Positions 37,034-41,808 of a DNA stretch of 64,000 nt are shown one piece after another. Below the pieces are notes generated by a model, which searched no databases, was not told the DNA's origin, and saw nothing but the letters and a program-made list of their open reading frames with translations. The stretch comes from Bryobacterales bacterium (GTDB lineage: Bacteria; Acidobacteriota; Terriglobia; Bryobacterales; Bryobacteraceae), in assembly GCA_027452065.1 (NCBI GenBank), contig DAIDHC010000069.1, forward strand, positions 1 through 64,000, in the 5' to 3' direction. The first letter of the stretch is position 1; each line of letters starts with the position of its first letter. The position numbers and the translations under genes are program-made.

Positions 37034-38299
37034 CTACCGCTTGCCCAGCCGCAGTTCCAGCTCCATGTTCCGCGGATAGCGCACTTCCTTGCCGCGCGCC
37101 AGCCATTGCGTGAACAGGGAGCGGCTGAAATTGTATCCGCCCAGCGCCATCGCCACCGGATTCCCATGCCCCATCGCCGCCACCGTCACCATTCCCAGCA
37201 TCCCGATTCCCCCGGGCGTATCCCCCGGCGCCGCCGACCAGAAGAACGAACTCGCGTCGGAGTCCAGCGCGCTCTGCAGCGCCGTCAGCGTCGACAGTGC
37301 CCGGCTTTTATCCGCCTGCGCCGTCGCCCCGCCCTCGTCGTCCACCTTCAGCCTCTGCGAGGGGTCCGCCGCCACACCCTCCACGATCCCCGCCATGCTT
37401 TCCCGCGTCCCATCCGGCCGCACCACTTCCTTGAACCGGAACCTCAGCTTCCCGCCCCGTCCAAACCGCCGCGCCGGCTCGGCCTGGCTCACTTCGCCCT
37501 CCAGCTTCGTCCCCTCCGGCAGCATCACCCCGCCGTCGGCCGCTATCAGCGGCCGCGTGAACTCCGCTTCCACCTGCTGGCCAAATTTCGACGTTCGCGA
37601 ATCGAGCGGCGTCAACAGCCGCGCATACACCAGCGCCCCGTCCGCCGGCAGCGGTTCGCCCTTGGCCGCATCCACCACCGGCGCCCCCGCCGCTTCCACC
37701 TCCAGCGGCGCCGCCAGATCCGCCTCCAGCCTCGTCCCCGCCGGCATCCACTGCTGATGCAGCGGCAGCCGCACCTGGATGAAATCGGTCACGCTCCGCA
37801 CCTTGCCCGGGCTCTCTTTCCACTGCTTGGCTTGGGTCACCACTTCCCCCACCCGCTCCTTGAACATCCCCTTCAGCCCCTTGTTCGCGCCCTGCCCCGC
37901 AAACCGCACCATCCGCCCGTCTTCCAGCTTCACCCGTGTCCGGATCGCCTCCACCGGGTGCCCGGCCACCTCCAGTTGCGTGAACACGATCTCCGGCTCC
38001 CGCAGCGGCGTAAAGTCGGCCTTCTGCAGTGCCTCCCACCGCCGCTTCCCCGTCACGCTCTCCACCGCCTCCACTCGCCCGATGAGCTCCGCTCCCTCGG
38101 GAATCACTAGCCGGTTCCCCTGGTATACCGGCTCAACCAGCCGGGCCTTCACCGTCCTGCCCGGCTTCCGGTCCACCGGCAGCCGGCCCTCGATCGCCAC
38201 TTTCAGCGGCAACCCCTGGGGCAACGTCACCGTTTCGCCCCATCCCACCCCCAGCCCCAATACCACACCCAATAGCCACAGAGCCCCCGACTTCAACAT
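37034..38299 (-). CDS. Secreted hypothetical protein
   Basis: Signal peptide MLKSGALWLLGVVLGLGVGWGE with GGAGG SD; ORF-track start at 38350; start coordinate +/-1 bp. Confidence 0.65.
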   Translation of the reverse strand: MLKSGALWLLGVVLGLGVGWGETVTLPQGLPLKVAIEGRLPVDRKPGRTVKARLVEPVYQGNRLVIPEGAELIGRVEAVESVTGKRRWEALQKADFTPLREPEIVFTQLEVAGHPVEAIRTRVKLEDGRMVRFAGQGANKGLKGMFKERVGEVVTQAKQWKESPGKVRSVTDFIQVRLPLHQQWMPAGTRLEADLAAPLEVEAAGAPVVDAAKGEPLPADGALVYARLLTPLDSRTSKFGQQVEAEFTRPLIAADGGVMLPEGTKLEGEVSQAEPARRFGRGGKLRFRFKEVVRPDGTRESMAGIVEGVAADPSQRLKVDDEGGATAQADKSRALSTLTALQSALDSDASSFFWSAAPGDTPGGIGMLGMVTVAAMGHGNPVAMALGGYNFSRSLFTQWLARGKEVRYPRNMELELRLGKR

Positions 38300-38351
38300 C
38301 AAAATTCCTCCCGCCGCGTTTCCACTGCGGCGTGTCTTATTTTGACGCATT

Positions 38352-38477
38352 TTACGTTCGCTGTGTTACTCCTTTTTTCCGCCGCCGCCTCGCCAGCCAC
38401 TTCTCGATCTCATAAAGTCCCAGCACCAGCGCCGGCGCCGCGAATCCTGCCGCCGCGTAACTCCACGCCTCCGTCAT
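38352..38477 (-). CDS. 41-aa single-TM microprotein, translationally coupled to pspA
   Basis: MTEAWSYAAAGFAAPALVLGLYEIEKWLARRRRKKGVTQRT*, codon-by-codon read; ATGA overlap with pspA stop; SD-like GGAAGGGAG. Confidence 0.6.
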   Translation of the reverse strand: MTEAWSYAAAGFAAPALVLGLYEIEKWLARRRRKKGVTQRT

Positions 38478-39133
38478 ACTCCCTTCCTCGCTTTCAGCTC
38501 CGCCAGCACTTTCTCCACCTCATCCGCTTTTTCAAGCGCCGCCAGCCGCTCCTCTACGTTGTCCTCCAGCAGCGACGCCCTCGCCTGGCTCACCGCCTCG
38601 GCCCGCTGCACCTTCCCCTTCAGCCGCTCAAACGATCCGTCCCTGGCTCCCTCGCCCATCTTCATTCCCGCCTCTCCGGCCCGGTCCAGAGCCTTCGCCC
38701 TCCGGTGTTGCGCCACCAACATGTCGCTCCGCCCCCGCGCCTCCGCCAGCTTCTGCTCCAGCTTCCGCAGCGCGGTCTTCAAATTCTCCGCCTGCACCGC
38801 CTGGTCGGCCACCTGCTGCGCGTAGTTGCTCTCCAGTTGCTTGTAGCTCCGCGCCCGCTCGATCGCCGCCCGCGCCAGCTCGTCGTCTTTCTTGTCCACC
38901 GCCAGTTCCGCTTTCCGCATCCACTCCGCTTCCTTCTCCGCGTTCTCCTTCTGCTTCTTGGCCAGCAGATGCTGATCGGCGATCGCGATCGCCACCTGCG
39001 TCTTCACCTGCATCAGTTGATTCTCCATGTCCAGAATCACCTGCTTGATCATCTTTTCCGGATCCTCCGCCTTGTCGAGCAGATCGTTCAGATTCGCCCG
39101 TACCAGCGTCGCCACCCGTTCCATCAACGCCAT
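38474..39133 (-). CDS. pspA: PspA/IM30 family protein
   Basis: MALMERVATLVRANLNDLLDKAEDPEKMIKQVILDMENQLMQVKTQVAIAIAD. Confidence 0.95.
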   Translation of the reverse strand: MALMERVATLVRANLNDLLDKAEDPEKMIKQVILDMENQLMQVKTQVAIAIADQHLLAKKQKENAEKEAEWMRKAELAVDKKDDELARAAIERARSYKQLESNYAQQVADQAVQAENLKTALRKLEQKLAEARGRSDMLVAQHRRAKALDRAGEAGMKMGEGARDGSFERLKGKVQRAEAVSQARASLLEDNVEERLAALEKADEVEKVLAELKARKGV

Positions 39134-39158: not shown

Positions 39159-40595
39159 TCACTCGCCTTCCGTCTCCACCTTGGTCCCCTTGCCGTCCGG
39201 CCTGGCTCCTTTATCGCCGATGTTCCTCACCCTCCCCAGCAGCTCCGACATCTGCATCCCCGACAGCGTCTCAAACAACGCCGGAATCTGTGCCGCCATC
39301 TTCGTCAGGTCCCCGGTCACCTTGTTCAGCCCCGCCGAGTCCCCTCCGGTCGAAACCACCGTGATCCTGTCCACGTTGGCCAGCGGCGCCGCCAGCGCCT
39401 TCACGATCTCCGGCAACCCGGTAATCAGCTTGTCCACCACCGCCGCCTGGTTCCACTCCTGGTAGGCCTCCGCCTTCACCGTCATCGCCTTGGCCTCGGC
39501 CTCGCCCTTCTTCAAAATGATCTCCGCCTCCGCCTCGCCCTGCGCCCGGATCGCCGACGCCCTGCCTTCCGCCTCCGCCGTCACCCTCTGTTTCTCCGCC
39601 GCCGCGATCGTCTCAATCCTCTGCCGCTCGATCTGCGCCTGCTTCAGCACCGTCGCGATCAGCTCTTTCTCGTGCCGCAGAATCTCGGCCTCCTGCACTT
39701 TAATCTGCTGCTCCTTCTCCACCTGCTCCACCTTCACCTGCTCCACCACCACCTGCTGCTGCATCGTGTTCGCCTGGATGTCGTAGGCCTTGTCCGCCTG
39801 CGCCTGCTGCCTCTTCACGCTCTCCTGGTACTGCGCCTTCTTCACCTCCAGGTCCCTCTGCGCCTCGGCCTGCTTGGCCTGCGACAGCGTCTCGGCCAGC
39901 ACCCTCTCCTGGTCCGCCTGCGCCCGCGCCACCGCCGCCGCCCTCTGCGCCTCCGCCCGCTTGATCGCCGTGTCGCGCTCGGCTTCCGCCGCCGCCACGT
40001 CCGCGTCCCTCTTGATCCGCGCCACGTCCGGCCGCCCCATGTTGCTGATGTATTCGTTCTTGTCCCGCACTTCCTTGATCGTGAACGAAATCACCTCCAG
40101 CCCCATCTTGCTCATGTCCTCGGCGCAGGTCGACCGCATCCGGTCCCCCACCATCTCCGGCTCTTTCACAATCTGCTCCACCGAAAGCTGCCCGATGATG
40201 CCGCGCAAATGCCCCTCCATCACCAGCCGGATCAGCCCCTCCCGCTCCTGCGCCGACTTGGTCAGAAACTGCTCCGCCGCCGTCTGGATCGACTCCGGAT
40301 CGCTCTTCACCTTGATCTGCGCCACCGCCTCCACCGTCACCGCTACGCCCTGCTTGGTGTACAAATCCTGCTGCGGCGCCACGTCGAACGACATCAACTG
40401 CAGGCTCAGCTCCCGGTAGGTCTCCAGCATCGGCCAGATCACCGTCCCCCGGCCTTTCACAATCCTCGTCCCCTTCGCCCCGTACACCACCAGCGCCTCG
40501 TGCGGCCCCGCCTTCCGGTACAGCCGCGCCACCGCCGACAGCAGGAAGATCACCGCCAGCAAACTCAGTCCCACAATCACCACGATCGTCGCCAT
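39159..40595 (-). CDS. Flotillin-like SPFH-domain protein
   Basis: N-terminal TM, ALVVYGAKGTRIVKGRG, long EA-rich coiled coil AEAEIILKKGEAEAKAMTVKAEAYQEWNQAAVVDKLI. Confidence 0.93.
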   Translation of the reverse strand: MATIVVIVGLSLLAVIFLLSAVARLYRKAGPHEALVVYGAKGTRIVKGRGTVIWPMLETYRELSLQLMSFDVAPQQDLYTKQGVAVTVEAVAQIKVKSDPESIQTAAEQFLTKSAQEREGLIRLVMEGHLRGIIGQLSVEQIVKEPEMVGDRMRSTCAEDMSKMGLEVISFTIKEVRDKNEYISNMGRPDVARIKRDADVAAAEAERDTAIKRAEAQRAAAVARAQADQERVLAETLSQAKQAEAQRDLEVKKAQYQESVKRQQAQADKAYDIQANTMQQQVVVEQVKVEQVEKEQQIKVQEAEILRHEKELIATVLKQAQIERQRIETIAAAEKQRVTAEAEGRASAIRAQGEAEAEIILKKGEAEAKAMTVKAEAYQEWNQAAVVDKLITGLPEIVKALAAPLANVDRITVVSTGGDSAGLNKVTGDLTKMAAQIPALFETLSGMQMSELLGRVRNIGDKGARPDGKGTKVETEGE

Positions 40596-40616: not shown

Positions 40617-41204
40617 TTAACTCGTCAACTCGTCCCAGCGCCGCACATACGCCACGCCGCGCTCATATCTCGTCACCACAACCTCGACGCCCCGCCCGAT
40701 CTCCTCGCCGTCCTCGCTCCGTATCGGCGCCGACCGCCGCGCCCCGTCTCTTTGGTAAATCATCTCCCCCGTCCCCCCGCGCCGCACCGTGCTGCTCACC
40801 CTCCCCAGCACGCCCGTCATCTCATAATCGGCCGGGTCCATCCCGTCCTCCCCCTCCGGCGCCAGCCTCGCCAGAAACCAGAACACAACGCCGCCGCCCG
40901 CCACCCCTGCCGCCCCCGCCAGCCCCAGCGCCGCCAGCGCCCAGATGCTCGAAAACCGCGTCAGCAGATACCCCGCCCCGCCAAACCACGCCAGAAACGC
41001 CGCCATCGTCGGCGGATTCAACACCGCCCCCGCGCCCCCGCGTCCCGCCGCTCCCTTCGCGCCCCCGTGCCCGCCATGCCCGGCTCCCGAAGGCGCCCCG
41101 TGCCCATGCGGCAGATGCAGCCTCCCCGAGCCCAGCACAAACGTGAACAGGCTGAACAGGAACCCAACCAGAAAACAAATCAGGTAAAAATTTTCCCAGC
41201 TCAC
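40617..41204 (-). CDS. NfeD-like membrane protein
   Basis: GTG start VSWENFYLICFLVGFLFS, central TMs, C-terminal beta domain (EDGEEIGRGVEVVVTRYERGVAYVRRW); GTGA overlap with upstream XRE stop; tracked ORF over-extended to 41777. Confidence 0.75.
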   Translation of the reverse strand: MSWENFYLICFLVGFLFSLFTFVLGSGRLHLPHGHGAPSGAGHGGHGGAKGAAGRGGAGAVLNPPTMAAFLAWFGGAGYLLTRFSSIWALAALGLAGAAGVAGGGVVFWFLARLAPEGEDGMDPADYEMTGVLGRVSSTVRRGGTGEMIYQRDGARRSAPIRSEDGEEIGRGVEVVVTRYERGVAYVRRWDELTS

Positions 41205-41692
41205 CGCTTCCCCCCTCCCGCGCCGTTCTCCGGCTTCAGCACCCCCATCAGCCGCTCCGCCAGCTCCGGCGTCTCCAGAATCTCGCCCAGCAAAAGCAAA
41301 CATCCCCGCGAGTCTTCGTGCTTGGCCACCCGCAACAGCGCCTTCCCCAACTCCCTGTCCCCGCGGAACCTCTCCGACCCCTCCACCAGCCACAAATCCA
41401 GCGCATCCTCGCTCCCCCGCACGTCCGACATCAACTCCGTGTGATACCCCTCCGGATCGTCCACCAGGTACCCCGGATGGACTTTGAAAAACCGCGACAG
41501 CAACAGCCTCGTCTGGTTCGTCAAATGCGGCCTCGACCCGCCTTCGATCTGTGAAAGATAACTCTGGCTGATCGACTGCCCCAGCTCCTTCTTCACCGCC
41601 CGCACCACCTCCTGCTGCGTCATCTCCCGCCCCATCCCCCGCAGCGTCCCCTCCACCTCCCTCAAGTACCGCAGCTTCTCCCCCAATCTCAT
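41201..41692 (-). CDS. XRE-family helix-turn-helix regulator
   Basis: LGEKLRYLREV...MTQQEVVRAVKKELGQSISQSYLSQIEGGSRPHLTNQTRLLLSRFF; GGGAGG SD before ATG at 41692. Confidence 0.85.
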   Translation of the reverse strand: MRLGEKLRYLREVEGTLRGMGREMTQQEVVRAVKKELGQSISQSYLSQIEGGSRPHLTNQTRLLLSRFFKVHPGYLVDDPEGYHTELMSDVRGSEDALDLWLVEGSERFRGDRELGKALLRVAKHEDSRGCLLLLGEILETPELAERLMGVLKPENGAGGGKR

Positions 41693-41763
41693 GCCGTCCT
41701 CCCGCTCCCCATCCCCAGTCCCTCCGTTCCGCCCCGCCGCTGCGCCATCCGTTTCCATCTCCT

Positions 41764-41808
41764 ATCGCAATATGCAATCATGTTATTGCGATTTGCGATT
41801 CGAGTCAA
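41764..41808 (-). promoter_or_regulatory. Sigma70-like promoter overlapped by palindromic operator upstream of XRE-NfeD-flotillin-PspA operon
   Basis: TTGACT (41803-41808) N17 TAACAT (41780-41785); perfect 9-bp inverted repeat ATCGCAATA (41764-41772)/TATTGCGAT (41784-41792) plus extra TTGCGAT (41793-41799). Confidence 0.65.

Follow-up and report, generated by a model that had tools for sequence, protein, structure and literature searches.

A genus-restricted microprotein at the end of an acidobacterial flotillin–PspA operon, and its possible role as a membrane partner

Introduction

PspA is a bacterial member of the ESCRT-III family, and we know of no settled account of how it is delivered to damaged membranes outside Proteobacteria and Firmicutes. 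YdjG and YdjH, two proteins of Bacillus subtilis that invite comparison, are larger than the 32–41 aa of the microprotein described here. PspA of B. subtilis relies on membrane partners from its own operon (PMC8581546, PMC9239133): neither it nor the SPFH protein YdjI gets to the membrane without YdjG and YdjH, membrane proteins encoded in the operon, and PspA and YdjH interact (PMC8581546). YdjG has a zinc-ribbon domain, the PspA homologue LiaH of B. subtilis has LiaI as its membrane anchor, and an HTH/NfeD/FloT/PspA arrangement occurs in Acidobacteriota (PMC9239133); band-7/flotillin neighbours of PspA are found more widely (PMC11237479). Our literature search found no paper on a small membrane protein associated with a phage shock protein in Acidobacteria. 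Here we describe a short gene that overlaps pspA in a 64,000-nt stretch of a Bryobacterales contig (the window), and compare it with these systems.

Results

Helix-turn-helix (HTH), NfeD-like, Band_7/Flot and PspA genes lie side by side in the window, which is the gene content that defines the acidobacterial NfeD–flotillin–PspA operon (Table 1). Its pspA is the only PF04012 match in the genome; the NfeD-like protein gave no Pfam match above cut-off and is named from its layout and position. Cross-species similarity of the HTH regulator begins only at residue ~20–23, which places its actual start probably near 41692; a promoter-like site lies ahead of this gene at 41808–41780. The same four-gene block occurs in genus relatives (PspA 73–75% identical) and in more distant Acidobacteriota. 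This architecture is already known for the phylum, and the microprotein is the extra.

Table 1 Features of the operon in the window
Feature	Coordinates	Strand	Remarks
Microprotein gene	38352..38477	-	41 aa; ATG overlaps pspA stop (ATGA); conserved core, residues 1-18
pspA (PspA/IM30 family, PF04012)	38474..39133	-	124.7 bits, cut-off 33.9
Flotillin (Band_7 + Flot domains)	39159..40595	-	90% identical in genus relatives
NfeD-like membrane protein	40617..41165	-	Approximate start; YuaF/YqiJ-type layout (TM helices, then OB-like C-terminus)
Helix-turn-helix regulator	41201..41758	-	Pfam HTH matches below cut-off

The complete ORF that an earlier note had reported after pspA is present and translates as MTEAWSYAAAGFAAPALVLGLYEIEKWLARRRRKKGVTQRT*, with the TGA of pspA and the ATG of the microprotein sharing four nucleotides, as that note had stated. 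Its Shine–Dalgarno-like sequence fared less well: GCGAGGAAGGGAGTATG stands ahead of the window ORF and is readable as a ribosome-binding site, but the run is not conserved in the genus relatives. An NTG start overlapping the pspA stop (NTGA) is also seen at 14 of the 87 non-genus loci, so the presence of an ORF there is weak evidence by itself. What takes this one beyond chance is that three genus relatives keep a homologous ORF of 32 aa at an identical junction, that change within it is strongly biased towards synonymous sites, and that similarity stops at the stop codon. The 4-nt overlap suggests that translation of the microprotein may be coupled to that of pspA.

The gene that follows the microprotein differs among genomes, being a convergent gene for a large surface protein in two relatives (G001 and G002), a same-strand oxidoreductase gene in the third (G003) and, in the window, a gene of 438 aa on the same strand that matches TrbI weakly. 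The microprotein accordingly belongs with the pspA operon and not with the genes beyond it. For the 438-aa gene, whose listed start is 38350, position 38299 is the likelier start (MLKSG..., signal-peptide-like), with GGAGG a few nucleotides ahead, and a hairpin at 38312–38332 just before this ribosome-binding site could regulate it.

Counting the window, four of four genus genomes carry the gene at this ATGA junction. G001 and G002 share the sequence MTSAWHYAAMGFAAPALVWLLLWASARMGRRR, from which G003 departs by two changes, and 18 of 32 positions are invariant relative to the window protein, mostly within residues 1–18 (MT..W.YAA.GFAAPALV) plus the final RRR. Within this trio the microprotein ORF matches the end of pspA in degree of similarity, and its dN/dS (0.00, 0.05 and 0.03) is as low as that of pspA in the same pairs (0.05–0.09); comparisons of the window with the trio give 0.28–0.33, at nearly saturated synonymous sites. 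Amino-acid changes are fewer than random placement of substitutions predicts, at P ~0.02 for G001/G002 (4 differing sites) and P <=5e-5 for each of the remaining five, mutually dependent pairs. Furthermore, third codon positions hold 10 of 12 and 13 of 15 nucleotide differences in the ORF, and past the stop codon similarity drops in every pair to approximately the level of shuffled sequence. Based on the low dN/dS, the scarcity of amino-acid changes, the third-position bias and the loss of similarity past the stop, we conclude that the ORF is a protein-coding gene under purifying selection, as judged from four genomes that represent in effect two well separated lineages. Lack of conservation and dN/dS near 1, which the earlier note had named as refuting the ORF, were both checked, and the ORF survives within its genus.

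Pfam and NCBIfam scans of the 41- and 32-aa forms returned no families, and a PDB sequence search gave chance matches only (E 0.68 or worse). AlphaFold, run on a three-row alignment, predicted a single helix over residues 4–39 with moderate confidence (mean pLDDT 75). The best 19-residue Kyte–Doolittle score is 1.69 for G001, 1.56 for G003 and 1.28 for the window form, against a usual threshold of 1.6 for a membrane segment; a PspB sequence, taken as a rough yardstick, scores 2.64. By these scores the forms of the relatives are likely to span the membrane, and spanning by the window form is marginal. The proposed hydrophobic helix with a basic tail holds as a layout typical of small membrane proteins with one helix, with a hydrophobic stretch that is borderline in the window itself. 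The RRRRKK tail is likewise present in the window but, like the 41-aa length, specific to it, only RRR being common to the relatives. The conserved part is instead the N-terminal motif, so any contact with a partner might be made in the membrane or at its outer side as much as through the tail. Following the positive-inside rule, the protein would insert as a single helix with the N-terminus out and the basic C-terminus in.

Profile searches for the microprotein recovered the four genus members only among 237 genomes of the family (it was absent from the 233 others), the same four only above noise among 257 genomes of the order, and, among 399 genomes drawn from the class, no more than the two that belong to the genus. 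True members scored E-values of 1e-20 to 1e-22. Two of the weak matches were examined individually (G109/L133, best E 8.7e-5, and G085/L141), and both lie inside unrelated genes and not beside pspA. None of the 87 pspA loci outside the genus carries the microprotein after pspA, and the broader expectation of conservation downstream of acidobacterial pspA did not hold beyond this genus at the family, order or class level. Clustering of the ORFs downstream of pspA across acidobacteria showed that the occupants are clade-specific: a PH-domain family in one clade, a family of 313–319 aa in three loci, and the microprotein in this genus. We consequently rejected a recurrent family of small membrane proteins in this position, as the clusters share no family. 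From this distribution, the microprotein is reasonably regarded as a narrow, lineage-specific addition to a known operon. At two loci (L034 and L038) a different small hydrophobic ORF (...FASGFLLG....LLIG....RR) lies downstream of pspA and may encode a further small membrane protein restricted to a clade; the L034 copy seems to be divided over two frames.

A tree of 89 PspA proteins groups the window with G001–G003 (97/71). The clade in which pspA is mostly followed by a gene for a transmembrane (TM) and bacterial PH-domain protein comprises 28 rows (100/100) and excludes this genus. Such genes (L039, L044, L045, L055 and ~17 more) lie 0–110 nt after pspA in the Bryobacterales/Solibacter clade and encode proteins of 125–132 aa that combine two hydrophobic helices with a weakly matching bacterial PH domain (PF06713, 21.0 bits; cut-off 22.9). 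We found no description of this protein, possibly also a partner of the flotillin–PspA operon. Two loci labelled Syntrophobacter (L048) and Betaproteobacteria (L102) have PspA genes that group inside Acidobacteriota, which suggests mislabelled or mixed assemblies, or gene transfer.

Discussion

We propose, with a probability of roughly 0.4, that this genus-restricted microprotein at the 3′ end of an HTH / NfeD-like / flotillin / PspA membrane-stress operon helps to hold PspA and/or flotillin at the membrane. Its conserved N-terminal and intramembrane half (W.YAA.GFAAPALV) would do the holding, and the job would be that of LiaI for LiaH and of YdjH for PspA/YdjI in B. subtilis. The partnership itself is only a guess, made plausible by LiaI and YdjH. 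Counting against it, the operon already has membrane components in the NfeD-like protein and flotillin, and the window hydrophobic stretch falls below threshold. Furthermore, close relatives that lack the microprotein retain the same four-gene operon, which indicates that the core system works without it. That the gene was born recently, de novo or by divergence beyond recognition, and was recruited in this genus to an ESCRT-III/flotillin membrane-repair operon where it adjusts the recruitment of PspA by means of a specific motif within the membrane, is a more elaborate proposal that we regard as unlikely.

The alternative that survives best, and one to be taken seriously though it too falls short of an even chance, is that the microprotein acts elsewhere, on the flotillin/NfeD pair, a transporter or the lipid bilayer, and shares the operon for co-expression, PspA not being its partner. 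In its favour, the microprotein is a single helix that lacks any domain suited to coiled-coil binding, it is constrained in its N-terminal/intramembrane half and not in the tail by which it would touch PspA in the cytosol, and flotillin and the NfeD-like protein are equally close partners; against this, the direct overlap is with pspA rather than flotillin, and the junction is conserved in four of four genomes. A membrane-active or toxin-like peptide, which size and the type I toxin layout of one helix with a basic end would allow, seems very unlikely for a gene that lies inside a stress operon, overlaps pspA and carries no evident sign of separate regulation. Slighter still is the chance that the microprotein is a leftover of the TM and PH-domain gene trimmed to its first helix: both occupy the same slot after pspA and both proteins start MT with an early W, but profile–profile comparison with that first helix (hhalign) gave a probability of 2.7%, too little similarity for a recognisable remnant, the PH gene is limited to a different and well-supported PspA clade, and purifying selection argues against decay; a search of the genus genomes, run without a positive control, did not find the PH-domain gene. 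Least probable of all is that the ORF arose by chance, or that its translation serves coupling or termination alone while its product is of no importance, as NTGA overlaps in GC-rich DNA might suggest, since the codon-level analysis refutes it unless the four-genome sample misleads.

Being under selection and attached to pspA, the microprotein is a concrete candidate for a PspA partner in Acidobacteriota. It also illustrates the addition of a small, apparently young gene to an old stress operon. Since it is confined to one genus, it can account for PspA delivery only to a limited extent.

Among known systems, PspB of Escherichia coli resembles the microprotein in layout only, with an N-terminal helix, a predicted cytoplasmic C-terminus and a place in a pspA operon. 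The microprotein lacks the alpha-helical cytoplasmic domain of PspB, having at most ~19 residues after the hydrophobic segment and a single helix in the AlphaFold model, and the PspB model (PF06667) matched neither the microprotein nor anything else in the genome, while the E. coli control did match; the earlier judgement that the two are not homologous thus stands. Nor did the ORF match the PspC domain (PF04024) in Pfam, and the only PspC match in the genome is on another contig. The window operon has the architecture of the Acidobacteriota HTH–NfeD–FloT–PspA network, to which a single genus adds the microprotein gene, unmentioned in the available sections of PMC9239133. YdjG and YdjH of pspA-ydjGHI are integral membrane proteins, encoded in the operon, through which PspA and a protein of the SPFH/flotillin type are linked to the membrane (PMC8581546), whereas the microprotein is small and has no recognisable domain. 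LiaI belongs to a LiaRS-regulated operon and is set beside the microprotein by description, the latter matching no family model; like the microprotein, it is a small membrane protein whose gene neighbours one of the PspA family, and it recruits the product of that neighbour, LiaH, to the membrane (PMC9239133).
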